A stretch of 10,912 bases of DNA, from the NCBI GenBank assembly GCA_003445095.1, contig DLVS01000449.1, positions 1-10,912 on the forward strand, given 5' to 3'. The position numbers and the translations under genes were made by a program. The notes under the pieces are model-generated. The model was not told where the DNA came from and made no database searches. It was given only the letters and a program-made list of their open reading frames with translations. This DNA comes from Verrucomicrobiales bacterium (GTDB taxonomy: Bacteria; Verrucomicrobiota; Verrucomicrobiia; Limisphaerales; UBA9464). Numbering within the stretch: position 1 is the stretch's first letter; each line of letters starts with the position of its first letter. Below, one piece after another: positions 199 to 10,912 of the stretch.

Positions 199-669
199 AT
201 GAACAAGGCAATCTCATTCGGCCGATATTTCGAGGATTTCGACATCGGAGACGTTTATGATCATTTTCCAGGAAAGACTATCACAGAATCAGACAATAAC
301 CTCTTTTGCCTACTTACGATGAATCACCACCCGGTGCATCTAGACTGGCAATTCGCCGAGGGAACACAGCACCAGAAGGTGCTGGTTGTTGGTACATTAG
401 TCTTCAGTTTGATTGTGGGACTGACCGTTCGGGATGTGAGTGGTCGGGCGATTGCCAACCTTGAATATGAAAGTGTGGTTCATTTGGCGCCGGTGCATAT
501 CGGAGATACTCTCCATGCCCGGACGACTGTCCTAGACAAGCAACAATCCCAATCGAAGCAAGATCGTGGCGTAGTTCAGGTCGAGACGACAGCGTCCAAT
601 CAACTTGGAAAGCCCGTCCTGCGATTTCGGCGAAAAGTGTTAGTCCCACTTCGGAATGCTACCACATAG
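199..669 (+). CDS. MaoC-family single-hotdog enoyl-CoA hydratase (mesaconyl-CoA hydratase-like)
   Basis: A 156-residue protein of the MaoC hotdog family, which reversibly hydrates short 2-enoyl-CoAs in the cytoplasm. The N-terminus (GRYFEDFDIGDVY, residues 8-20, then PGKTITESDN at 24-33) and the later VRDVSG and APVHIGDTL stretches (77-105) follow the single-domain subfamily often annotated as mesaconyl-CoA or beta-methylmalyl-CoA hydratase. The hydratase motif is MNHHPVHLD (41-49): His47 is kept, but Asn42 sits where classical (R)-hydratases carry the catalytic Asp of their D-x4-H pair. I recall Asn there in relatives of this subgroup, so it may be a subfamily trait. The next gene, a CitE-type lyase, overlaps its end by 14 nt, as expected if the pair forms and dehydrates a malyl-CoA-type product. 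An itaconyl-CoA hydratase role beside a citramalyl-CoA lyase is an alternative. The family call is firm; the substrate is not. Confidence 0.85.
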   Translation: MNKAISFGRYFEDFDIGDVYDHFPGKTITESDNNLFCLLTMNHHPVHLDWQFAEGTQHQKVLVVGTLVFSLIVGLTVRDVSGRAIANLEYESVVHLAPVHIGDTLHARTTVLDKQQSQSKQDRGVVQVETTASNQLGKPVLRFRRKVLVPLRNATT

Positions 670-1486
670 CTTCCATTTTGTCCCAGCACACAAGCCGCGC
701 TTTTTCGAACGGCTTGGGCTGCTGCCGGCGGACCGCTATATATTCGATTTGGAAGACGCGGTTCCACCCGCGGAAAAACAAGCCGCCAGGACTTTCTTGC
801 ACGAATTTCTACGTGCGAGAAAGAGTGATCATTACTTCGTCCGTATTCATGAAGCGGGGAATCGAGAGCGCGAGCGGGATCTGCATTTTCTCAGAGGATT
901 GGATTCCGTCGGGCTGGTCATCTCGAAATTCAGCGGCCGCGCCTCGTTGGAAGGAGTCGAGCGCAGCCGTGGAGCCCGGGGCCGCCCGCTAATCTTTTTG
1001 ATCGAAAGTTTTGCCAGCTTCTCAAATCTTGAGCGCGCTTTGGAAGGTGAACTGGTCCTTCCATACGGAATCGGATTAGGTTTCGAAGACATGCTTAGTT
1101 GCGTCCTCCACGACGCAGACCAGCTGATACCCCTATTGCGCCACATTCGGACAACGCTGGCCATTTGGTGTCGCGCACACGGCGTACTAGCAATTGATGG
1201 AATGTCTAGCGCTGACGAAAGTGACCCAGACTTTGAGCGGCTCTGTGTGGAGGGACGCAGCTGCGGGTTGCACGGCAAATTCTCGATCCATCCCCGACAA
1301 GTTCCGATCATTAATCGCGTTTTCTCCGCCTCCCCGGAGTCAGTACGTTGGGCTCAAAACATAGCAAGCTTGACCGGTTTGCGTGACGATTTTGGGTACG
1401 AACGCTCCGGCGATGTAATCATTACACCGCCGAAGGTGAAGAAAGCACGTTACATTCTCGAACAATTTCACAACAAGATATTATGA
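656..1486 (+). CDS. CitE/HpcH-type acyl-CoA lyase, first and more divergent copy
   Basis: A 276-residue TIM-barrel protein of the HpcH/HpaI aldolase / CitE family (malyl-CoA, methylmalyl-CoA, citramalyl-CoA and citryl lyases). These cleave or form a C-C bond between a short acyl-CoA and a 2-oxoacid such as glyoxylate or pyruvate. Visible motifs: HFVPAHKPRFF (7-17), DLEDAVPP (31-38), Arg63 in FVRIHE, Lys91 in ISKF, Glu117 in LIES and Asp145 in GFED (the expected Mg2+ ligands), AIDGMSS (179-185) and IHPRQ (211-215). The C-terminal lid, normally a variant of GKMIDAP, reads GDVIITPPK (252-260), so the usual Asp is absent. Its start overlaps the hydratase gene by 14 nt, and the N-terminal alignment supports this ATG. 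The stop overlaps the next start as ATGA. It is the less canonical of the tandem pair and may act as a thioesterase, a lyase of other specificity, or a partner subunit. Confidence 0.85.
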   Translation: MLPHSFHFVPAHKPRFFERLGLLPADRYIFDLEDAVPPAEKQAARTFLHEFLRARKSDHYFVRIHEAGNRERERDLHFLRGLDSVGLVISKFSGRASLEGVERSRGARGRPLIFLIESFASFSNLERALEGELVLPYGIGLGFEDMLSCVLHDADQLIPLLRHIRTTLAIWCRAHGVLAIDGMSSADESDPDFERLCVEGRSCGLHGKFSIHPRQVPIINRVFSASPESVRWAQNIASLTGLRDDFGYERSGDVIITPPKVKKARYILEQFHNKIL

Positions 1487-2373
1487 CCACCAGCCTCAGA
1501 ACCATGACGTTTGTGCCGGGTTATAAGGAGCGCTTTCTGGAGAAGGCTCGTTCCTTTCCATCGGACGCATTAATCTTGGATCTTGAGGATTCCGTTCCGT
1601 TGCCTAACAAGGCCGATGCCCGAGTCTTTATTCGGAACAGCCTTGAGGAGAAATGGCATCCTCAGGAAGTGTTTGTGCGGGTGAACTCGATCGATTCTGG
1701 GATGCTGATCGAGGACTTGCGAGCCACACTTCACGCCCAGACTACCGGATTCATGTTCACCAAGGCCCTGGATGAACACGATATCATCTACTTCGACAAG
1801 TTACTGGCCCAACTCGAGCGGGATGCTGGATTTCCAGTAGGGCAGTTCAAAATGTGTCCTCTCATTGAAACCGGACGGGCCGTGCTACGTGCATATGAAA
1901 TGGCCACGGCTTCCACCCGAACCGTGGCCCTTGCGTTCGGTGGCGAGGACTATCTAACCGACTTGGATGGACTGCACAAAGAACATGGGACCAGCCTGAT
2001 CGTGCCTCGGTCGCTGATTGTCATGGCAGCCAGGTCCGCCCATGTCGGTGCTATCGACACGCCCTATTTAGACATCCAGAACCTAGCTGGCTTCCAGAAG
2101 GAGGCTGAATTGGCGCGAGAACTTGGATTTTCCGGCCAACTCATTATTCATCCTAGCCAGATTGAAATCGCTAATACCGTGTTTACACCGTCGGAGCAAG
2201 AGGTGCGGGAGGCGAAGCAGATCATCGAAGTTATCCACGAAAGTGAACGGCTCGGGTCAGGAGTGGCTTTGCTGGAGGGCAAGCTGATCGGGCCTCCGAT
2301 GAGGAAACGAGCGGAACATATCCTTAATAAGATGGCAGAAATCCAGCGTACCATCGATCAGCGGTTAGAGTGA
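1483..2373 (+). CDS. CitE/HpcH-type acyl-CoA lyase, second copy (malyl-/citramalyl-CoA lyase-like)
   Basis: A 296-residue paralogue of the preceding gene, closer to the family consensus. Motifs in order: FVPGYKERF (10-18), DLEDSVP (33-39), Arg66 in FVRVNS, Lys94 in FTKA, Glu129 in LIETG, Asp156 in FGGEDYLTDL (152-161), AIDTPY (190-195) and IHPSQIEIAN (222-231). These supply the Mg2+ and 2-oxoacid binding set of CitE-like lyases. The C-terminal lid reads GKLIGPPM (266-273), with Gly where many homologues have the Asp that reaches into the partner subunit's active site. The ATG overlaps the upstream TGA (ATGA), indicating translational coupling. Next to a MaoC hydratase and B12 mutase genes, a malyl-CoA or beta-methylmalyl-CoA lyase is the simplest reading. 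(S)-citramalyl-CoA lyase is equally possible from sequence alone. Confidence 0.88.
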   Translation: MTTSLRTMTFVPGYKERFLEKARSFPSDALILDLEDSVPLPNKADARVFIRNSLEEKWHPQEVFVRVNSIDSGMLIEDLRATLHAQTTGFMFTKALDEHDIIYFDKLLAQLERDAGFPVGQFKMCPLIETGRAVLRAYEMATASTRTVALAFGGEDYLTDLDGLHKEHGTSLIVPRSLIVMAARSAHVGAIDTPYLDIQNLAGFQKEAELARELGFSGQLIIHPSQIEIANTVFTPSEQEVREAKQIIEVIHESERLGSGVALLEGKLIGPPMRKRAEHILNKMAEIQRTIDQRLE

Positions 2374-2410
2374 GACCGGCTGTCTGTTGAAGCGCAGTTT
2401 GGACAAATAT

Positions 2411-3070
2411 ATGACAAAGCGCGTTATTATTCTTGGCGGAAGCGGTATCGGTATGATCGCTGCTTCGATCCTGACTCGGCAGCGACAGGTGAAAGTGCTT
2501 GGCTTCCTCAATGATGTGCTGCCGGTGGGCAGCTCGGTGGGAAAATTCCAGCAATACGAGGTACTAGGGCGCACCGACGATTTGCCGCGCTACCTGGACC
2601 AACCGGACGTAGTGGTTTTTATCGCCTACGTTGGTCTCACGAACGAAAAGGCCACATTTGCGAAAATATCGGCATTGAATATCCCGCCCGAACGATTTTG
2701 CAATGTGATCGACCAGACAGCCGTTATCCCTGAGGGGTTTTGCCGCATCGGAAATGGTGTTCTTATCGCACCACTGTCTCAGCTCAGCACGGATACAACC
2801 ATTTCGGACAATTGCATGTTGCTGCCAAATTCATTCGTGGGGCATGATAGCTTTTTGGACCGGTTCGCCCATCTGGCAACCAACGCGGTAGTTGGAGCGA
2901 ATGTTCATGTTGGCAAGGCTGTTCATATTGGAAGCAATGCAACAATCCGGGAGAAGGTTCGGATCGGAGACTTCAGCGTAGTTGGCGCCGGAGCCGTCGT
3001 ATTAGAACATGTGCCAGAGAACAGCATAGTCGTCGGCAATCCAGCTCGCCTTTTGCGACATAAGGAGTAG
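2411..3070 (+). CDS. PglD/NeuD-type left-handed beta-helix acyltransferase
   Basis: A 219-residue protein of the NeuD/PglD/VioB family, which transfers an acyl group (usually acetyl) from CoA to an amino or hydroxyl group of a sugar or nucleotide sugar. Residues 1-35 form a Rossmann-like sugar-nucleotide domain beginning [14 protein letters not shown]. From about residue 103 there are hexapeptide repeats of a trimeric left-handed beta-helix. His145 (FVGHD) is the probable catalytic base, and His154 lies in [11 protein letters not shown]. The C-terminus [10 protein letters not shown] is typical. I chose the ATG at 2411, preceded by GGAC at 2401-2404, because the family starts right at the first beta-strand; the frame also allows a TTG at 2387. 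It lies 37 nt after the lyase and 32 nt before the mutase, so it is embedded in an acyl-CoA operon. That makes a non-acetyl acyl donor worth considering (inference). Confidence 0.85.
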
Positions 3071-3102
3071 TCGGTGCCGCGAAGCACTCCGGAATTCTAT
3101 TG

Positions 3103-4743
3103 ATGAGCGAACTAGACGCAATTCGATTAGCCGAAGGGAATTGGCAACGTACGACGAAGGGCACCACTTCGCCGACAGCCGCTGAGCAACCGTTGCTTTA
3201 CACTCCACTCAACTTAGGTGGGACTCCGTATCTTAACGCCATTGGCTTTCCCGGATTCTATCCATTCACTCGAGGCATTTACCCCACAATGTATCGGGGG
3301 CGTCTGTGGACGATGCGGCAGTATGCGGGGTTTGGCGCAGCCGAAGATTCCAACGCCCGCTATCGCTACCTCCTCGAACAAGGCCAAACCGGCCTGTCGG
3401 TCGCCTTTGACCTCCCGACACAGATTGGTTACGACTCTGATCATCCGATGGCAGTAGGCGAGGTGGGGAAGGTCGGAGTGGCCATTGACAGTATTGCTGA
3501 CTTCGAAGTGCTGCTCGGTGGAATTCCTTTGGACCAGATTTCCCTCTCCATGACCATCAATGCTACGGCAGCGATCCTCCTGGCGATGTTCGTGGTCGCC
3601 GGGGAGAAGCGAGGCGTGGCCCCACAGGCGCTTCGTGGAACGGTTCAGAATGACATTCTCAAAGAGTACATTGCGCGCGGCACCTACATTTTTCCCCCGG
3701 AGCCTTCTCTGCGTCTCGTGGCCGACATTATCGAATTCTGTGCGCATGAAATGCCGCGGTTTAACGCTATCAGCGTCAGCGGTTACCACATTCGCGAGGC
3801 GGGTTCCACTGCGTCCCAAGAGGTCGCTTTTACCTTGGCCGATGGATTGGTGTATTGCGAAGCGGCGCTCCACCGCGGCTTAGCGATCGATGCATTTGCG
3901 CCGCAACTTAGCTTTTTCTTTGCAGCTCATAACAATGTTCTTGAAGAAACTGCCAAGTTTCGGGCAGCTCGCCGACTTTGGGCGCGCCTGATTCGGGACC
4001 GTTACGGCCCGAAAGATTCAAAATCGATGCAGCTGCGGTTTCACGCCCAGACCGCCGGATCCGCGCTCGCGGCCCAGCAGCCACAAAACAACATTGTTCG
4101 AGTCGCTCTCCAAGCCGCCGCCGCCATCTTGGGCGGAGCTCAGAGCTTGCACACCAATTCCTGGGACGAAGCCCTCGCCTTGCCCAGTGAGGAGGCCGCT
4201 CACCTCGCGCTCCGAACCCAGCAAATTCTTGCTCATGAATCCGGGCTTGCCGACACGGTGGATCCTGTTGGAGGTTCCTACTGCGTCGAGGCGATGACGG
4301 ATCGTATTGAAGCTGAAGCGACCGATTACTTGAAGCGGATCGACGATGCTGGCGGCATGTTACGGGCAGTCTCCGACGGCTACGTACAGCGCGAGATTGA
4401 GCAGGCCGCCTATTCCTATCAGCAGAAGGTCGAGAAAGGAGAGCGCATTGTGGTTGGCAGCAACCGGTTTCAGGAGGAATCTAATGGCGCCCTCGAACTA
4501 CCGGAGATTGGCCCAGATATTGGTGAACGGCAGATTGAGAAACTCAAGCAGGTTCGTCAGTCTCGTGACACAAGCCAAGTTGCCCAAGCGCTCAGCACCG
4601 TCCGGGAGACGGCGCATGGCGGCGGGAATTTGATGCCCCCCATCATCGCCGCCGTGCGAGCCTCTGCCACGGTGGGTGAAATTGCTGACGCCCTGCGGCA
4701 AGTATTCGGGATCTACAATCCGCATATATCAGGAAATAGGTAA
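3103..4743 (+). CDS. Methylmalonyl-CoA mutase, large catalytic subunit (split type, lacks B12 domain)
   Basis: A 546-residue catalytic chain of a coenzyme-B12-dependent acyl-CoA mutase, which interconverts succinyl-CoA and (R)-methylmalonyl-CoA by radical rearrangement. The barrel signature [18 protein letters not shown] starts at residue 60. Tyr74 and Arg192 ([10 protein letters not shown]) match Tyr89 and Arg207 of the Propionibacterium enzyme, which hold the substrate carboxylate; isobutyryl-CoA and 2-hydroxyisobutyryl-CoA mutases replace both, so a dicarboxylic acyl-CoA substrate is indicated. His229 (SGYH) and Gln316 (HAQTAG) are also present. Odd: FAPQLSFF (265-272) has Gln268 where methylmalonyl-CoA mutases normally have Arg (Arg283 by my alignment). 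There is no cobalamin domain; the next gene supplies it, overlapping by one base (TAATG). I chose ATG 3103 over the TTG at 3100. Ethylmalonyl-CoA mutase is the main alternative. Confidence 0.93.
4731..4740 (+). promoter_or_regulatory. Ribosome binding site for the B12-binding subunit
   Basis: The purine-rich AGGAAATAGG lies inside the last codons of the mutase large-subunit gene, with AGGA eight bases before the ATG at 4743. It is one of the clearer Shine-Dalgarno sequences in the window and supports a start overlapping the upstream stop. This would keep the two mutase subunits in balance. Confidence 0.6.
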
Positions 4744-5162
4744 TGCCTATGAGGACTACTCCGGTGCGGGTTTTGATTGCTAAGGTCGGTCTGGACGGCC
4801 ATGACCGCGGCGCCAAGTTCGTCGCCCAAGCGTTGCGCGACCGTGGATATGAGGTGATCTATACCGGAATTCGCCGGACGCCCGAGGAGGTTGTCAACAT
4901 AGCGATAACTGAAGACGTTCAGTTTCTCGGAATTAGCACCTTGAGCGGTGGACACAAGGCCCTGTGTCCGAAGGTTGCGTCCTTGCTAAAAGCACAAGGC
5001 GCTAGTGACATCATCCTATTCGCTGGTGGAATCATTCCTCCGACCGACCTCCCCACTTTACAAGCACAAGGCGTTCGCGCGGTATTTGGTCCCGGAACCA
5101 GTATCGATCAAATTGTCGCATTTATGGAAAAAGCCCATGCCAAACCTGCCAGAGTTGCTTGA
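4743..5162 (+). CDS. Methylmalonyl-CoA mutase, small cobalamin-binding subunit
   Basis: A 139-residue flavodoxin-like B12-binding protein that carries adenosylcobalamin for the catalytic chain encoded just upstream. The diagnostic base-off/His-on motif D-x-H-x-x-G is intact as DGHDRG (18-23), with His20 as the expected lower axial cobalt ligand. The later cobalamin-tail contacts are also present: S-x-L as STL (65-67) and GG (95-96, in FAGGIIP). Its length is normal for a stand-alone subunit. The start shares one base with the upstream stop and the end overlaps the GTPase gene by 26 nt, so all three partners of the mutase assembly are coupled. A short near-repeat, AGCACAAGGCG, occurs at about 4990 and 5063 and encodes the similar peptides KAQGA and QAQGV; I attach no function to it. 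Confidence 0.93.
   Translation: MPMRTTPVRVLIAKVGLDGHDRGAKFVAQALRDRGYEVIYTGIRRTPEEVVNIAITEDVQFLGISTLSGGHKALCPKVASLLKAQGASDIILFAGGIIPPTDLPTLQAQGVRAVFGPGTSIDQIVAFMEKAHAKPARVA
5126..5130 (+). promoter_or_regulatory. Ribosome binding site deciding the GTPase start
   Basis: GGAAA lies six bases before the ATG at 5137. It favours that start over the in-frame upstream start at 5005, whose extra 44 residues would lie wholly inside the cobalamin-subunit gene and look like no family extension. Confidence 0.45.
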
Positions 5163-6114
5163 AGGAGTAAAAGCCAGGCAGGTCCGAGCATTAGCCAAGG
5201 CCATTTCACTTGCGGAAAACGCCCCGAGTTCCGCGGAGCACTTGCTAGCCGGCCTGGGGTCCGTGGCCCCACGGTCACTAGTCGTTGGGATCACTGGTGC
5301 CACGGGCGTCGGGAAAAGCACGTTGATCAAAGCCCTGATCGAACAAGGGTTGAAGGATGACCTCCGCATAGCGGTGTTGGCGGTGGATCCCAGCAGCCCA
5401 CTGTCCGGAGGGGCACTGCTGGGCGATCGAATTCGGATGGTGGTGCCCGAGACCGAACCGGAGCGGCTATTCATCCGGAGCCTTTCCTCTCGAGGCAACG
5501 ACGGTGGCGTGTCACGCGGAATTGCGGTTACGATCCAGTTGGTGCGTCATGCCGGTTATGACGTCGTCTTGGTCGAAACAACTGGTGCAGGCCAATGCGA
5601 ATTCGACGTGGTGCGTTTCGTGGATTTGGTCTGCGTGCTGTTGGCGGAGGGATTCGGTGACGAACTTCAGGCCATGAAATCTGGCCTCATGGAGATTGCC
5701 GACCTTTTGGTAATAAATAAATGTCGCCGACCAGGCACTGCAAACCTGCACCGCGAGTTGGAGAGTCACCTAGCCCATTCGTCCCGCTTCGAGCGATTTG
5801 GGCTACTTCAGCCGCCCGTCCTATTAACCGACGCCCTCTCCGGTAACGGAATCGCAGAGCTTTGGCTTCGGCTCAAGGCGTTAGCGCAAGATGAGGCGTG
5901 CCTGGCGGCCTGTGCTCGGAAGCGTCAGCACCTTGCGCACTACAGCGCAGTAGCGTCGATTTTGGAGTTGCTAAAAGGCCGTCTGCTGGCACGGCTACGA
6001 GAAGACTCAGTCAGCGTCAACATCGCCACACTCCCCCCCCTGGAGCTCCGCCGATGGCTACTTGAAGTGTGTCACGAAGAGTTGTCTCGAAAACACTATG
6101 CCGAAGAAAATTGA
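5137..6114 (+). CDS. MeaB/ArgK-family G3E GTPase, mutase chaperone, with altered G4 motif
   Basis: A 325-residue P-loop protein of the MeaB/MMAA/ArgK family, which loads cobalamin onto acyl-CoA mutases and protects or repairs them using GTP. The P-loop is GATGVGKST (54-62). Switch regions include VDPSSPLSGGALLGDRIRM (from 83) and ETTGAGQCEFD (147-157, usually ETVGVGQSE), followed by GDELQAMKSGLMEIAD (174-189). The guanine-specificity motif NKxD reads NKCR (194-197): Asn and Lys are kept but Asp is replaced by Arg, while the following RPG still matches the family. I re-read the codons (AAT AAA TGT CGC) and see no frameshift. Helical C-terminal dimerisation sequence follows to the normal family length. 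A C8 run at 6033-6040 lies in the last tenth of the gene. The family assignment is firm; GTP dependence is doubtful. Confidence 0.9.
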   Translation: MPNLPELLEGVKARQVRALAKAISLAENAPSSAEHLLAGLGSVAPRSLVVGITGATGVGKSTLIKALIEQGLKDDLRIAVLAVDPSSPLSGGALLGDRIRMVVPETEPERLFIRSLSSRGNDGGVSRGIAVTIQLVRHAGYDVVLVETTGAGQCEFDVVRFVDLVCVLLAEGFGDELQAMKSGLMEIADLLVINKCRRPGTANLHRELESHLAHSSRFERFGLLQPPVLLTDALSGNGIAELWLRLKALAQDEACLAACARKRQHLAHYSAVASILELLKGRLLARLREDSVSVNIATLPPLELRRWLLEVCHEELSRKHYAEEN

Positions 6115-6535
6115 CCACATCGCAATCGCTGTCCGGTCCCTCGCCGAAGGAGAAGCATTGCTGAACGCTCTTGGCTTTACCTGTGAACGACAAGAATTGA
6201 TCGAAGAGCAGGGAGTCCGAGTAGCCTTCTTCGATGTTGCCGGTGTCCACGTCGAGTTGTTGGAACCGTTGAGTGCCGAAGGACCCATCCGCCGATTTTT
6301 GGGCGACCGCCTAGCAGTGGTCCATCACCTAGCTTTCGCCTCAAATGACATTGAAGCCGAGATGGCCGCGCTCCAAGCAAAGGGCATGCGTTTCATTGAT
6401 CCTGAGCCTAGAAATGGCTCGCGCGGCAAAAGGATAGCCTTCATCCACCCTAAATCATCTGCCAGCCTCCTGATCGAATTGTGTCAGGACGTAGCGGTTG
6501 AACAACCGAAAGTCGTGGCGCCTGAAATAACTTAG
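6098..6535 (+). CDS. Methylmalonyl-CoA epimerase (VOC superfamily)
   Basis: A 145-residue vicinal-oxygen-chelate protein that interconverts (R)- and (S)-methylmalonyl-CoA through an enolate held by a divalent metal. The two beta-alpha-beta-beta-beta modules are recognisable. Metal-site residues are His7 (DHIAIAV), a Glu in VELLEP (52-57), His77 (HHLAF) and Glu127 (LIEL). The catalytic-region Glu is present in EEQGVRVAF (36-44), and IAFIHPKS (113-120) is the usual epimerase signature. The start at 6098 fits the family N-terminus and overlaps the GTPase gene by 17 nt; an upstream in-frame TTG at 6062 would add an implausible 12 residues. The epimerase completes a mutase, chaperone and epimerase set. 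No propionyl-CoA carboxylase or methylmalonyl-CoA decarboxylase is present to use its product. Confidence 0.92.
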   Translation: MPKKIDHIAIAVRSLAEGEALLNALGFTCERQELIEEQGVRVAFFDVAGVHVELLEPLSAEGPIRRFLGDRLAVVHHLAFASNDIEAEMAALQAKGMRFIDPEPRNGSRGKRIAFIHPKSSASLLIELCQDVAVEQPKVVAPEIT

Positions 6536-6625
6536 TCCCGGTGAGTATAAGCATCCTGCTAAGCCCTCAAGTTCTTCCGCCGATATTTAGTAGGTCATTG
6601 ATCCGTCCGATCTGCTGACAATTTA
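6536..6625 (+). other. 90-nt spacer between the CoA module and the glycan module
   Basis: The gap separates the epimerase stop from the first glycosyltransferase start. I found no stable hairpin with a T-run, and no promoter with both boxes well placed. It could hold an internal promoter too weak to recognise by eye. As it stands nothing argues against read-through from the upstream operon. Confidence 0.4.
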
Positions 6626-7738
6626 ATGAGTAAATTATTCCCCCTGTATGAGGAGTCTCAAAGGCGCTTTAGCGCACAAACCGAATACTTGGGAAGCGAC
6701 AAACCTGTAAATCGGATACAACCGTTAGTGTCCGTATGTGTTGCGACCTATCAACATGGCGGCTTCATCGCCCAATGTCTCGACGGAGCACTGATGCAGA
6801 AGACTAGCTTTCCTTACGAAATTATTGTTGGCGAGGACGAATCAACCGATGAGACACGGGCTATCTGCATCGATTACGCCGACAGGTATCCGGACAAAAT
6901 CCGTCTGTTCCTGCGATCAAGAACCTTGTCGACTTGGAACGACAACGGAAAAACTCGCCCGTTCAACGGCATTTGGTGTCGCCGGTCGGCACGAGGAAAG
7001 TATGTGGCCATTTGTGAAGGTGACGACTACTGGACCGATCCGGAGAAGCTCCAGAAACAAGTGGACTACTTGGAGGCCCACCCCGAATGCGGGCTCTGCT
7101 TTCACAACGTCGGAATTGAAGATTCGACTGGGCACTACACAGGAAAGCCGACCTATGCTCATAACTGCCGACGCCTACCCTTGGAGCGAGACGCCACATT
7201 TACGATCGCCGACACGTTTCCAGGCGGGCTCATACCAACCTGCAGTGTCGTGTTGCGCAACGAACAAGACATACGTAATCCGCCGGACTTCTTCTATCGC
7301 ACCTTAACCGGCGACTGGCTGCTGTGGCTCCTTACCTGCAAAGACAGAACGATGTTCTATTTTCATCGTCCAATGGCTGTTTACCGGCCGACCACGACGG
7401 GAATGGCCCACGCCCTCCGCCAAAACTGGAATGCGGTCTATCGGGACCGAGTACGAATGCTTCTGGCCCTTGACCGATACTGGGGCTACCGGCTGCACGC
7501 CACCATTGCTCCATCTCTGCGCAACTATATCGAACTCTTGCCACCGGGGCGGACGTCGGTCGAAGCTTATGCACGATATGTATTGGCGCAGCCATTGGAG
7601 GGAACGAAGTTCGCTGTTAACCATGCCTCGCAGAAGGCTCGCGAACGGTTGAGGCTCGTGAAATCGCGCCTGTATCGCAGACCAGCCACGGCAGCCCACC
7701 CTGGCCCGCCCAGTCGAGGCCCCCAAACGCCACCCTAG
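6626..7738 (+). CDS. GT2-family glycosyltransferase (first copy)
   Basis: A 370-residue GT-A-fold glycosyltransferase, probably cytoplasmic or membrane-peripheral, adding a sugar from a nucleotide donor to a surface glycan. After an approximately 33-residue leader, the GT2 core begins VSVCVATYQHGGFI (35-48) and continues to IIVGEDESTDET (66-77, nucleotide site). The metal-binding DxD-like site is EGDDYWTDP (131-139), followed by KLQKQVDYLEAHPECGLCFHNV (from 141). A late GDWLLW stretch fits the acceptor or catalytic region. The last 20 or so residues are Pro- and Arg-rich and probably disordered. No transmembrane segment is obvious. It follows the epimerase after a 90-nt gap, the longest intergenic space after the left edge, and starts the glycan half of the cluster. 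Donor and acceptor cannot be told from sequence. Confidence 0.88.
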   Translation: MSKLFPLYEESQRRFSAQTEYLGSDKPVNRIQPLVSVCVATYQHGGFIAQCLDGALMQKTSFPYEIIVGEDESTDETRAICIDYADRYPDKIRLFLRSRTLSTWNDNGKTRPFNGIWCRRSARGKYVAICEGDDYWTDPEKLQKQVDYLEAHPECGLCFHNVGIEDSTGHYTGKPTYAHNCRRLPLERDATFTIADTFPGGLIPTCSVVLRNEQDIRNPPDFFYRTLTGDWLLWLLTCKDRTMFYFHRPMAVYRPTTTGMAHALRQNWNAVYRDRVRMLLALDRYWGYRLHATIAPSLRNYIELLPPGRTSVEAYARYVLAQPLEGTKFAVNHASQKARERLRLVKSRLYRRPATAAHPGPPSRGPQTPP

Positions 7739-7805
7739 ATTGCCGGCTTACCCACTAAACAATTAGTCATATCGCTTCGCGTTAACTTCGATCTCTATTC
7801 AAGCG
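7739..7805 (+). other. 67-nt spacer within the glycan module
   Basis: AT-richer than its surroundings, with a five-base inverted repeat (ACTAA at 7754-7758, TTAGT at 7763-7767) that is too short to call a terminator or operator. No Shine-Dalgarno stands before the ATG at 7806. Confidence 0.3.
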
Positions 7806-8579
7806 ATGGATCTGATTGCCTCATTCCGTAGAACTCTTCGCTATTCGCTGGGCAGGCAGTTACCGAACCTTCATAATGACCGCCGACTACGTCGCCTGAA
7901 GGATATTCACAAAGGCCGGCGCGCGTTTGTCATTGGCAACGGACCCAGTCTTAAAGTCCCGGATTTGGACAGATTAACTAATGACATCGCGTTCGCCTCC
8001 AACAAGATCTATTTGGCATTTGACCGGACGCCATGGCGTCCAACATACCTCACTTGCAGCGATAGTGTCGTCGCCCAGACGGTTGGTCCAAATATGGCCG
8101 CGCTGCCGATAACGAAGATATTCGGTCACAGTACATTTCCTTACTTCAAGCGCCACGCAGACATCACCTATTGCAACTCACCGTCGAGACGTACCGATCC
8201 TAAAGATTGGGATTTGATTAAAGGGGTCAGCACCGGGCATTCGGTGCTCTACTGGGACCTCGAGTTGGCCTTCTGGATGGGTATCCGGGAGATCTACGCG
8301 ATCGGCGTAGACTTCTCCTTCGAGGTCGCTTCCAAAGCAACTGGCGCAAAAGCCATGGGAAACGATGTCTTGGCCGCGGGCCGCGAGGTGAACCACTTTC
8401 ATCCTGATTATCGCAAACCTGGCGAACTGTGGACGATGCCTCAACTTAACAAACAACGTGACGAATTCGCTTTCGCGCTTGAAAAATACCGCTCCCACGG
8501 CGGTGTCATCTACAATGCTTCGCGCGAAACGAAGCTTGATGCTTGGCCTCGCGTAGACTTCGAGTCGCTTTTCAAATGA
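7806..8579 (+). CDS. MptE-like/DUF115 protein, GT42-sialyltransferase-like
   Basis: A 257-residue protein of the family annotated as 6-hydroxymethylpterin diphosphokinase MptE-like (DUF115). Key motifs are AFVIGNGPSLK (40-50), IGVDFSF (166-172) and NHFHPDYR (196-203), ending GVIYNASRETKLDAWPRVDFESLF (from 233). The GNGPSL loop followed by DLDRL, the mid-protein IREIYAIGVDF and the later His-rich segment run in the same order as CstII-type GT42 sialyltransferases (GNGPSL, EIYLSGIDF, catalytic His region). The MAF flagellin-glycosylation proteins carry a related domain. With two glycosyltransferases and a CMP-sugar synthetase as neighbours, a role in transferring a CMP-linked sugar is more likely than pterin metabolism (inference). 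Its stop overlaps the next start (ATGA). Confidence 0.75.
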   Translation: MDLIASFRRTLRYSLGRQLPNLHNDRRLRRLKDIHKGRRAFVIGNGPSLKVPDLDRLTNDIAFASNKIYLAFDRTPWRPTYLTCSDSVVAQTVGPNMAALPITKIFGHSTFPYFKRHADITYCNSPSRRTDPKDWDLIKGVSTGHSVLYWDLELAFWMGIREIYAIGVDFSFEVASKATGAKAMGNDVLAAGREVNHFHPDYRKPGELWTMPQLNKQRDEFAFALEKYRSHGGVIYNASRETKLDAWPRVDFESLFK

Positions 8580-9457
8580 GCAAAGTGTCTACAATCACGG
8601 CTATCCTCTGCAACTACAACGGGGCTGCCTACCTACAAGAAGCAATCGACAGTGTCATCAACCAAACGCGACTTCCCGAGGAGTTTATCATTGTCGATGA
8701 CGCTTCAACCGACAGCTCCAAGGAGATCATCCGTAAAGTGACCCAGAGGAATCCTGCATTAATCAAGTTCATTGAACATCCGCAACAGCGAGGGCAAGCA
8801 GCTGGATTTAATACTGCGGCATCAGCGAGCACCGGGGACTTATTGGCATTCCTCGACAGCGACGACCTCTGGTTTCCTCAAAAGCTCGAGCGAATGCAGC
8901 ACAAATCAATGAATTGTCCGGGTTTTGGTTTATTACAGCATAATTTGCAGATCTTGCAGGGGCGCGAGTTATTAGCTGAGCCCGTCATGCCAGGATTGGT
9001 TGTGGGAGACGCGTTTGAACTCTGGCAGCGTTATCAGACCTTTCCAAACTTCGTGCCAACCAGCGGTTTAATGGTGCGCAAGGCCATCTTCGAACAAATT
9101 GGTCCAATCCCCGAAACGCTGCGCATTTCCGCGGACTCGTTTTTGACGCGTGCCGCAATTTCTCTGGGGCCTGTCGAGTCGACCCTCGATTGTTTGGGAG
9201 CATATCGGCGGCATGCCCAAAACAACGTCGCTGGCAACAGCAAGCATGACTCGTGGCAGTTTTTTCTCAAGAACGTGAGTCCGCGCCTAGCGGAGTTCTA
9301 TGAAAGGACCGGTCGGCCCCTGCCGCGTCATATCCAAATGCCGACATCCAGCAAATTGAGCAACGGAAGATTTTTTAACCCAATACTTGATTTGTCTCCC
9401 CGTCGAGTGCTGCGAGTATTGAAAAAGTGGACACGAACAGGTGAATCATCGAAGTAG
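8576..9457 (+). CDS. GT2-family glycosyltransferase (second copy)
   Basis: A 293-residue GT-A-fold transferase. The core begins ITAILCNYNGAAYLQEAIDSV (from residue 7), with the nucleotide site IIVDDASTDSS (38-48) and the DxD-type metal site FLDSDDLWFPQKLERM (92-107). An acceptor-side region includes SGLMVRK and ISADSFLTRAA. The C-terminal 70 residues are basic and lack a clear membrane segment. I took ATG 8576, which overlaps the preceding stop as ATGA; the frame also allows a TTG at 8543, but that adds residues with no family counterpart. It is distinct from the first GT2 and presumably adds a different sugar. The next gene begins 7 nt after its stop. Confidence 0.87.
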   Translation: MSKVSTITAILCNYNGAAYLQEAIDSVINQTRLPEEFIIVDDASTDSSKEIIRKVTQRNPALIKFIEHPQQRGQAAGFNTAASASTGDLLAFLDSDDLWFPQKLERMQHKSMNCPGFGLLQHNLQILQGRELLAEPVMPGLVVGDAFELWQRYQTFPNFVPTSGLMVRKAIFEQIGPIPETLRISADSFLTRAAISLGPVESTLDCLGAYRRHAQNNVAGNSKHDSWQFFLKNVSPRLAEFYERTGRPLPRHIQMPTSSKLSNGRFFNPILDLSPRRVLRVLKKWTRTGESSK

Positions 9458-9464
9458 CGATAGC

Positions 9465-10058
9465 ATGAACAATTATTGGTCCCAATATCAACGGTGCCTG
9501 ATGCAGGCCCTCGCGTCGTCGCAGGTTACAGACGCCGAGGGACAGACGCTTGACGCCGAAGTGGCTGTCCAGCGTTTATGCGAATTGACCTTATCCGTGC
9601 GGGACGCTCGGCGAACCATCCATTTCGTGGGCAACGGAGCCAGTGCCTGCATGGCCAGCCACATGGCTGTGGATTGGACTAAAAACGCCGGAGTTCGGTC
9701 GCTCGCTTACAACGACCTCGCGTTTCTCACTGCCATTGGCAACGACCTAGGCTACGATCAGACTTTTTCCCAGCCGATAAACTGGTTCGGCGAGCCGGGC
9801 GACTTATTGGCAACGATCAGCAGCTCCGGCAATTCGCCCAACGTGGTTAACGCGGCGGCGGTCGCGCGGCAAAAAGGTTTGATACTGGTAACGTTTTCCG
9901 GCATGAAACCCGACAATAAGTCGCGACGAGCCGGGGACCTGAACTTTTACGTTCCGGCTACTACTTATGGTTTCGTGGAATGCGCGCACCAAGTACTGCT
10001 TCATACCTGGCTAGATTGCTACATGAACGTGCGCGAATGGGATACGACTCCACGCTAA
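9465..10058 (+). CDS. SIS-domain sugar-phosphate isomerase, GmhA-like with altered metal ligands
   Basis: A 197-residue SIS-domain protein related to sedoheptulose-7-phosphate isomerase (GmhA). Motifs: FVGNGASACMASHMAVD (54-70), LTAIGNDLGYDQTFS (88-102), and the phosphate-binding Ser/Thr loop ISSSGNSPNVV (118-128). The C-terminal helix VECAHQVLLH (171-180) aligns with the GmhA IQEIHxxxxH segment. E. coli GmhA binds zinc through His, Glu, Gln and His; here the counterparts read His66, Asp70, Glu172 and His180. The two changes are conservative, so a metal isomerase is still plausible, perhaps with another substrate. The ATG at 9465 gives a 7-nt gap after the GT2 stop; a GTG at 9441 is an alternative. 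Context suggests it supplies a sugar phosphate for the glycan, possibly a heptose. Confidence 0.8.
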   Translation: MNNYWSQYQRCLMQALASSQVTDAEGQTLDAEVAVQRLCELTLSVRDARRTIHFVGNGASACMASHMAVDWTKNAGVRSLAYNDLAFLTAIGNDLGYDQTFSQPINWFGEPGDLLATISSSGNSPNVVNAAAVARQKGLILVTFSGMKPDNKSRRAGDLNFYVPATTYGFVECAHQVLLHTWLDCYMNVREWDTTPR

Positions 10059-10094
10059 AGCCACCCTCGACCTCCACTCGTCCTCGATTCTGCT

Positions 10095-10757
10095 ATGATT
10101 GTTGCCATGATTCCAGCCCGCATGGGTAGCCAGCGCCTGAAGCAAAAGAATCTGCGCGAACTGGCAGGTGTGTCCCTGATCGCTCGCGCTATCCGAAAAT
10201 GCAAAACAGCAGCGGTATTTGATGAAGTCTGGGTGAACTCGGAAAATGCTGCCTTTGGCGAGATTGCCGCCGCCGAAGGAGTCGGTTTTCACCAACGGCC
10301 CGAGGCCCTCGGCAACAACGTGGCGACCAGTGAACAATATATCGCGGAATTTCTGCTGAAACATCCATGCGACTTTGTGGTACAGGTCCATAGCATAGCA
10401 CCCCTGCTCACCCGCGAAGATATCGTTGGCTTTGTTACCGAGCTACGGCACGGAGATCACGATTGTCTCCTGAGCGCCGACCTAATCCAAATCGAATGCG
10501 CCTATCGAGGTCAGCCGATAAACTTTCACTTCAGTGAAAAAACCAACTCCCAAGACTTGGAGCCGGTGCAACGAGTCAGCTGGAGTATCACCGGCTGGCG
10601 CCGTTCCACCTATTTGGCAGCGGTGGCCGAAGGACGCTGCGCCACCTACAGCGGCAGGGTCGGCTTTTTTCCGGTCAATCGCCTCGCCGGACATGTGGTA
10701 AAGCCCGAGGACGACATGCGGATGGCCGAGGCTCTTTTGCCCCTCGTCGGCAACTGA
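10095..10757 (+). CDS. NeuA-like CMP-sugar synthetase (acylneuraminate cytidylyltransferase family, divergent)
   Basis: A 220-residue nucleotidyltransferase that would activate a nonulosonic or related acid with CTP in the cytoplasm. The N-terminal CTP-binding signature is clear: VAMIPARMGSQRLKQKNLREL (from residue 3), with Arg9, Gly11, Ser12, Arg14 and Lys18-Asn19. In classical NeuA a later segment reads PTSPLR; here it is VHSIAPLLTREDI (98-110), lacking that Arg. After residue 155, PVQRVSWSITGWRRSTYL replaces the usual strand before the substrate-binding loop. KPEDDMRMAEAL (203-214) fits the C-terminal metal/Asp end of the family. It therefore probably activates something other than Neu5Ac. 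It lies between the SIS gene and a YhcH/NanQ gene, consistent with a sialic-acid-like sugar. No Shine-Dalgarno is evident. Confidence 0.82.
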   Translation: MIVAMIPARMGSQRLKQKNLRELAGVSLIARAIRKCKTAAVFDEVWVNSENAAFGEIAAAEGVGFHQRPEALGNNVATSEQYIAEFLLKHPCDFVVQVHSIAPLLTREDIVGFVTELRHGDHDCLLSADLIQIECAYRGQPINFHFSEKTNSQDLEPVQRVSWSITGWRRSTYLAAVAEGRCATYSGRVGFFPVNRLAGHVVKPEDDMRMAEALLPLVGN

Positions 10758-10777
10758 TTTCGTTATCCCGGTTTTTG

Positions 10778-10912
10778 ATGATCATCGGCTCTATCGAGCA
10801 AACACGGCTCGTTTCATTTCTGAGCCAGGTGCCCGTCCTGAAGCGCTCTTTCGAATGGATCAAGAGTATGCCGACGGACCTGCCGAAGGGCATTGTCGAG
10901 CTCGAGGGCCGC
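10778..10912 (+). CDS. YhcH/YjgK/YiaL (DUF386, NanQ-like) family protein, 5' part only
   Basis: An open frame of 45 codons starting at ATG 10778 and running off the window edge. The start MIIGSIEQ, then LKRSFEWIKSM (21-31) and DLPKGIVELEGR (34-45), follow the N-terminus of the cupin-like YhcH/YjgK/YiaL family. E. coli NanQ of this family is a sialic-acid anomerase acting in the cytoplasm. The frame begins 20 nt after the CMP-sugar synthetase stop, so it very likely belongs to the same operon and supports a sialic-acid-like sugar. The short fragment limits confidence; active-site residues lie beyond the edge. Confidence 0.65.
   Translation, partial: MIIGSIEQTRLVSFLSQVPVLKRSFEWIKSMPTDLPKGIVELEGR

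Follow-up and report, generated by a model that had tools for sequence, protein, structure and literature searches.

The window analysed here, a stretch of 10,912 nucleotides from a Verrucomicrobiales bacterium (contig DLVS01000449.1), is on balance best explained as a cassette for the N-acylation of a nucleotide sugar which possesses its own factory for the required acyl-coenzyme A (acyl-CoA). The core is formed by the genes of a MaoC-type hydratase/dehydratase, a CitE-like protein (CitE2) and a PglD-type acyltransferase, and there is strong evidence that this trio recurs as a unit in the glycan loci of different phyla. A set of genes for a vitamin B12-dependent methylmalonyl-CoA mutase follows directly downstream. 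The window contains 13 complete genes, all on the + strand, and the start of a 14th; with intergenic distances between −37 (overlap) and +90 bases they constitute one tight gene run. The contig on which the window lies measures 57,737 bases according to the protein index. Genes were assigned by Pfam and NCBIfam domain searches of the window proteins, and those of the presumed cassette are:

199..669, + strand: MaoC-type hydratase/dehydratase, cassette core (PF01575 3.5e-20; RipB/Ich-like; 22 of 24 loci have a copy of 56–65% identity next to CitE2 and PglD)
656..1486, + strand: CitE1, second CitE-like protein, Thr replacing the lid Asp (PF03328 2e-12)
1483..2373, + strand: CitE2, cassette core, predicted malyl-CoA-lyase fold, lid Asp replaced by Gly270 (PF03328 5.5e-42)
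2411..3070, + strand: PglD/NeuD/VioB-type hexapeptide N-acyltransferase, cassette core (TIGR03570 159 bits; alternative start TTG at 2387)
3103..4743, + strand: methylmalonyl-CoA mutase, catalytic (large) subunit (TIGR00641 773 bits)
4743..5162, + strand: B12-binding (small) subunit of the mutase (PF02310 1.5e-22; TIGR00640 167 bits)
5140..6114, + strand: MeaB-type mutase chaperone GTPase (PF03308 5.9e-67; TIGR00750 237.3 bits, cut-off 240.75)
6095..6535, + strand: methylmalonyl-CoA epimerase (TIGR03081 119.5 bits, exceeding the cut-off of 114.95)
6626..7738, + strand: GT2 glycosyltransferase of a type that adjoins the trio in other loci (PF00535 1.1e-17)

Distribution of the MaoC–CitE2–PglD trio

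A PglD alignment was used to scan the genome collection and yielded 26 loci; after exclusion of L025 and L026, which match only distantly or partially, 24 loci with a close PglD remain. MaoC, CitE2 and PglD are found together in 22 of them, with identities to the window proteins of 56–65% (MaoC), 35–42% (CitE2-like) and 45–70% (PglD). The two exceptions are located at contig ends, L002 with PglD only (starting at base 239) and L014 with PglD and a partial CitE. Glycosyltransferases and sugar-amine genes surround the trio. Its hosts belong to the Bacteroidota, Calditrichota, Electryoneota, Delongbacteria, Planctomycetota, Lachnospiraceae (Bacillota), Desulfuromonas and Malikia (Pseudomonadota), and thus to at least seven bacterial phyla when the Electryonea genome is counted within the Calditrichota; one further host is a Woesearchaeota archaeon, whose locus L023 reproduces the gene order of the window: MaoC, a CitE1-like protein (29% identity), CitE2 and PglD. 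Gelidibacter sediminis DSM 28135, Sunxiuqinia elliptica and Malikia spinosa are among the cultured hosts. A relative of MaoC is present as a single copy, identical with the cassette copy, in seven of eight genomes searched, and none was found in the eighth, the fragmentary G014. Most of these relatives stem from metagenome-assembled and possibly incomplete genomes.

Whole genomes, with larger groups sampled only in part, were additionally searched for further cassettes with a PglD profile (E 1e-60). Within the order of G008, 4 of 247 genomes gave a match, one of them new (G258); in the other groups the matching genomes (1/398, 3/39, 1/199, 1/247, 1/80, 1/397 and 2/13) were all known already. 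The cassette is therefore rare, since the eight groups searched yielded one extra genome; its locus L030, only 3651 bases long, carries the trio and gave no mutase match. No relative was found in viral contigs, every PglD match on plasmids remained below 60% identity, and the phage collection provided a single MaoC match of 40% identity. The trio is a sporadic, phylum-hopping cassette, rare but present in distant hosts. No paper on the cassette, or on a CitE devoid of the lid aspartate described below, was found among titles and abstract openings, a search that left subscription journals and preprints mostly uncovered.

An initial annotation of this DNA had read the hydratase, CitE and PglD genes as a glycan cassette whose own acyl-CoA is destined for a sugar of the cell surface, and had named CoA blocks regularly found apart from glycan genes as an observation that would speak against this view. 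The core idea is well supported by the conserved trio in glycan loci, 22 of the 24 with a close PglD, and for the trio part the co-occurrence with glycan genes holds. Individual loci contain further genes around the PglD gene, namely a LUD-domain gene between aminotransferase and PglD (L020:9176-10000) and a sulfotransferase-domain gene directly before PglD (L015:4338-5048).

CitE2 and the missing lid aspartate

The structural model of CitE2 displays a TIM barrel with a C-terminal lid and thus a predicted malyl-CoA-lyase fold; among the closest folds is that of Rhodobacter sphaeroides malyl-CoA lyase crystallised with propionyl-CoA and glyoxylate. The Mg2+-binding Glu and Asp and an arginine are kept in all 21 aligned CitE2 proteins of the loci and in both CitE proteins of the window, while the protein of L011 was read by eye. 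The lid site is altered. Asp299 of R. sphaeroides malyl-CoA lyase (4l9y; compared together with human CLYBL, 5vxc) corresponds to Gly270 in CitE2 of the window, and the cassette CitE2 proteins have 22 Gly and one Ser among 23, against 96 Asp and four Glu among 100 ordinary CitE relatives. In CitE1 of the window the site is occupied by Thr. Asp299 is described as conserved throughout the CitE-like superfamily save for Glu in a thioesterase group (PMC3832036). This lid aspartate is presumed to remove the α-proton of the acyl-CoA. The "two CitE-type lyases" of the initial annotation have consequently to be qualified: the Mg and arginine sites are kept in both proteins, but the catalytic lid aspartate is gone from both. 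Asp100 is the sole charged position that is conserved in cassette CitE2 yet rare in ordinary CitE.

Among the relatives of CitE1 listed, 19 have E-values of 3.8e-34 or better, followed by a drop to 3.8e-22. A second CitE-like gene is also found at L009:9175-9954, L019:7845-8672 and L023:4142-4951, with Glu at the lid site in two and Thr in one. At L030:2159-3639 a very divergent CitE (about 21–23% identity) is inserted between PglD and MaoC and is followed by the closer CitE2. The only Ser at the lid site belongs to the Desulfuromonas CitE2 (L012:1011-1922), in which Cys also takes the place of the initial Asp in the conserved LDxED stretch.

MaoC

The best relative of MaoC in the PDB is β-methylmalyl-CoA dehydratase (8hgn). 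Cassette MaoC proteins (window 199-669 and 22 loci) share a near-invariant E-S/C-DNN ... TMNxHPxH stretch, at a position of which classical hydratase-2 proteins have Asp instead of Asn. The nearest NCBIfam model is RipB/Ich (itaconyl-CoA hydratase; 2.2e-43), whose 148 bits are far below the cut-off of 340; likewise, the RipC scores of 72 and 148 bits do not approach the 375 bits required. Itaconate catabolism was rejected on account of these scores.

Mutase and carboxyltransferase as probable sources of methylmalonyl-CoA

The mutase, B12-domain, MeaB and epimerase proteins all exceed Pfam or NCBIfam cut-offs, apart from MeaB, which falls 3.5 bits short of TIGR00750, so that the complete methylmalonyl-CoA isomerisation set claimed at the outset stands on clear family matches for every part. 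The large subunit contains the motifs RQYAGF and ARGTYI, compared with RQYAGF and VRNTYI in human methylmalonyl-CoA mutase and RQIAGF and AQKEYI in 2-hydroxyisobutyryl-CoA mutase. It therefore keeps, at two sites which we take to contact the substrate, the Tyr and Arg typical of methylmalonyl-CoA mutase, not the Ile and Gln of 2-hydroxyisobutyryl-CoA mutase, and an altered mutase substrate was rejected for this reason. In a tree built from 35 of 120 listed large-subunit relatives, the window mutase groups with three of the listed sequences in a separate clade (100/100). Relatives of PglD and of the mutase (120 listed rows each) were also compared by eye for the longest contigs of their sources. 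Besides the 57,737 bases of the window's own contig, the listed rows have the lengths 6433 and 6868 bases in common. The former is shared by P0123 (PglD, 80% identity) and P0243 (mutase, 74%), which come from the same source and probably represent a second mutase cassette in a metagenome. For CitE1, the relatives P0003 and P0007 have longest contigs of 5342 and 5543 bases, as do the PglD rows P0122 and P0124; the value 5543 also turns up in an unrelated PglD row.

A second route to methylmalonyl-CoA is suggested by three loci (L003, L009, L013) which harbour a PccB/MmdA-type (propionyl-/methylmalonyl-CoA) carboxyltransferase within the gene run. The initial annotation had used the absence of a carboxylase as an argument, and these sister cassettes reverse it. 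No mutase was found in the three corresponding genomes, compared with its presence in 18 of 21 other genomes. G003 and G013 contain no close relative of this carboxyltransferase besides the cassette copy (the second match in G013 has 39% identity), and G009 has a second relative at 51%. The sequence comparison did not separate acetyl, propionyl and methylmalonyl substrates of the carboxyltransferase. The CitE2 tree places the window with the three carboxyltransferase loci at a support of 88/87, which is not strong. A mutase generates (R)-methylmalonyl-CoA, a carboxylase the (S)-form. An epimerase is located beside the window mutase and none was seen beside the cassette carboxyltransferase, which fits a common need for (S)-methylmalonyl-CoA. 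With moderate confidence we conclude that both add-ons converge on methylmalonyl-CoA.

PglD and the potential acceptor sugar

Both Pfam domains of PglD exceed their cut-offs (PF17836, 25 bits versus 23.4; PF00132, 64.4 versus 27), and with 159 bits the protein lies 1.8 bits below the TIGR03570 cut-off of 160.8. Window PglD is 61–81% identical to the other 15 rows of alignment A1, and His145 of the hexapeptide domain, presumably the catalytic histidine, is invariant in all 16 aligned rows. The best PDB relative is VioB (7txp, 2.4e-23). One aminotransferase cluster is represented in 18 of the 26 loci and adjoins the trio or sits one gene off in 15 of the 22 trio loci. For all six members tested the best match was deoxythymidine diphosphate (dTDP)-4-dehydro-6-deoxyglucose aminotransferase, each time below the cut-off. 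Inspection by eye assigned further clusters to RmlA (six loci) and RmlB (five loci). Because of the aminotransferase cluster, the RmlA/RmlB-like clusters and the relationship of PglD to VioB, the acceptor is, by analogy, probably a dTDP-4-amino-4,6-dideoxyhexose. Judging from the relatives, such a sugar is expected rather than the cytidine monophosphate (CMP)-sugar originally suggested, to which the downstream genes of the window point.

Relatives of the glycosyltransferase encoded at 6626-7738 are found in 10 of the 26 loci and adjoin the trio in six (L006, L007, L008, L015, L016, L018). The mutase set of the window is therefore positioned inside the cassette, between two cassette-type genes, an argument which is supportive, not decisive, since GT2 is a large family.

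Mechanistic considerations

These data lead us to propose a first scenario for the cassette. The mutase would convert succinyl-CoA to (R)-methylmalonyl-CoA and the epimerase the latter to the (S)-form. The C4 unit, directly or as propionyl-CoA, might then be joined on CitE2 to glyoxylate, pyruvate or another small 2-oxo acid, CitE1 either assisting CitE2 or acting on a related substrate. Dehydration of the resulting 3-hydroxy-dicarboxylyl-CoA of the methylmalyl type by MaoC would provide a mesaconyl-type acyl-CoA. Finally, PglD would transfer the acyl group onto the amino group of a 4-amino-4,6-dideoxy sugar nucleotide, and the GT2 enzyme encoded downstream of the mutase set would build the acylated sugar into a surface glycan.

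For the central step we tentatively consider that CitE2 uses the scaffold of a malyl-CoA lyase for a decarboxylating condensation, although we regard this as rather less likely than not to be correct. As the lid aspartate is missing, no α-proton would be removed, and we propose that the enolate is generated by loss of CO2 from (S)-methylmalonyl-CoA and attacks the Mg-bound 2-oxo acid; the B12 mutase plus epimerase in the window, or the carboxyltransferase in the other lineage, would feed this reaction. Decarboxylation by CitE2 is a testable guess. The proposed step would be irreversible and polyketide-like, outside any polyketide or fatty-acid synthase. The missing base and the methylmalonyl supply from both add-ons are linked by such a decarboxylative reaction; neither proves it.

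Several observations weigh against a methylmalonyl-fed cassette. None of the 26 loci as fetched contains a mutase, B12-subunit, MeaB or epimerase match. The idea that the mutase is conserved along with the trio was therefore dropped, as was the initial view of the mutase set as a constant part of the CoA block, and the mutase block is a lineage add-on to the trio. A mutase is common anyway, being present in 8 of 14 control genomes, and it is also not seen in 3 of the 21 genomes without a cassette carboxyltransferase (G010, G014, G023). The three carboxyltransferase loci group together with L014 in one clade of the PglD tree (100/99). They are thus counted as probably one recruitment and the mutase as another, and for L014 itself no such carboxyltransferase was detected at the cut-off in the fragmentary genome G014. 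The PglD and MaoC trees do not group the window with these three loci. Moreover, the 6868-base contigs common to PglD and mutase rows come from different sources, probably by chance, so a shared length is not proof of a shared contig, and the CitE1 relative P0006 resides on a contig of 27,962 bases, which is absent from the longest-contig entries of the listed PglD and mutase rows. Lastly, the 10.9-kb window contains no aminotransferase or dTDP-sugar gene; the acceptor is deduced from the relatives, and in the window organism these genes would have to sit outside the window.

Alternative explanations differ mainly in the role of CitE2 and the mutase. As a variant within the N-acylation cassette, CitE2 might use propionyl-CoA, produced from mutase-made methylmalonyl-CoA by a reversed housekeeping carboxylase or a decarboxylase, and condense it with glyoxylate in the manner of a usual malyl-CoA lyase, by means of another base. 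The malyl-CoA lyase with propionyl-CoA and glyoxylate among the closest folds of CitE2 and the relationship of MaoC to β-methylmalyl-CoA dehydratase agree with this variant, which we nevertheless consider unlikely: the lid aspartate is missing in all 23 cassette CitE2 proteins, Asp100 is the only charged position among those conserved in the cassette yet rare in ordinary CitE, and no mutase was found in the three carboxyltransferase genomes to supply methylmalonyl-CoA for decarboxylation. To a similarly low degree we expect the mutase set to be an ordinary one lying merely beside the trio, with only MaoC, CitE and PglD serving the glycan. Its absence from the 26 other loci as fetched and the normal residues at the two substrate positions compared fit such a chance neighbourhood, while the placement between PglD and a cassette-type GT2 gene in one tight run, the separate mutase clade and the probable second contig with PglD and mutase argue for a functional connection.

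Still less probable is a direct transfer of methylmalonyl or succinyl groups from CoA by PglD, the CitE-like proteins having a non-condensing function, for example thioesterase-like editing or binding. The loss of the catalytic aspartate would be compatible with it, as would the Glu at the lid site of two extra cassette CitE proteins, a residue reported for the thioesterase group in PMC3832036. Yet the Mg2+ ligands and the arginine are retained in 22 of 22 CitE2 proteins, and each of the 22 MaoC loci also has a CitE2, needless for direct transfer. It appears highly improbable that these genes form an ordinary pathway for the catabolism of itaconate, mesaconate or glyoxylate which has no relation to the glycan genes. 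RipB/Ich and RipC are indeed the nearest NCBIfam models for MaoC and CitE1, but their matches stay far below the cut-offs, no CoA-transferase match was obtained among the window genes scanned, and the trio is located in glycan loci. The N-acylation cassette with its own acyl-CoA supply hence remains our preferred explanation.

Relation to known systems

VioA/VioB and anthrose-type gene sets combine an aminotransferase, a dedicated acyl-CoA enzyme and an acyltransferase acting on dTDP-4-amino-4,6-dideoxyglucose; for anthrose the acyl-CoA enzyme is an enoyl-CoA hydratase, and the acyl group is branched and monocarboxylic. The likeness to the window lies in VioB as the best PDB relative of PglD. 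In contrast to anthrose, the acyl group to be expected here from CitE-type C–C chemistry, MaoC and a B12 mutase is a dicarboxylic or a branched hydroxy one. In RipB/RipC and β-methylmalyl-CoA pathways, MaoC and CitE enzymes act in sequence on hydroxydicarboxylyl-CoA; the window resembles them in its MaoC and CitE proteins and differs by the association with PglD and glycan genes and by the lack of a detected CoA-transferase. All four parts of the mutase set correspond to the two-subunit methylmalonyl-CoA mutase with MeaB and epimerase, except that the window set is embedded in a glycan cassette and belongs to its own clade.

N-malyl sugars joined through C-4 are documented for the O-antigens of P. 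rubra, V. vulnificus and S. algae (PMC3210612), which provides natural examples of such a linkage. CitE-made malyl-CoA would be expected to yield a 4-malyl group in amide linkage, and for the window a methyl-branched or unsaturated malyl analogue is predicted. A methylmalonyl-CoA-epimerase-like gene has been noted in a Vibrio nonulosonic acid cluster, which, as far as the accessible text of PMC7371886 goes, is not this cassette.

Downstream glycan genes

The remainder of the window is occupied by the following features:

7806..8579, + strand: DUF115/MptE-like protein of the glycan block (PF01973 1.1e-8)
8543..9457, + strand: second GT2 glycosyltransferase (PF00535 7e-30)
9441..10058, + strand: SIS-domain sugar-phosphate isomerase, GmhA-like (PF13580 2.3e-14; gmhA 3.1e-21, below cut-off)
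10095..10757, + strand: cytidylyltransferase, distant PseF/KdsB relative (PF02348 2.7e-20; PseF nearest, 58.7 bits versus a cut-off of 205.7)
10778..10912, + strand: start of a further open reading frame, ended by the window edge (45 codons, no Pfam match)

The last of these had been listed initially as YhcH/NanQ, an assignment which its 45 codons do not confirm; all other genes of that list were recovered. An Rfam scan of the window gave no matches at gathering scores, and promoter and terminator scans were uninformative (2 and 13 sites versus shuffle means of 6.1 and 11.1).

Implications

If the proposed scenario is correct, the cassette would introduce a new class of sugar N-acyl groups. 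It would also explain why a glycan locus contains a B12 enzyme, and tie vitamin B12 to the acyl group of a surface glycan. The Gly or Thr at the lid site offers a sequence marker for finding such enzymes. In CitE2, the malyl-CoA-lyase scaffold would have been turned, by loss of its base, from a reversible lyase into a one-way condensing enzyme.

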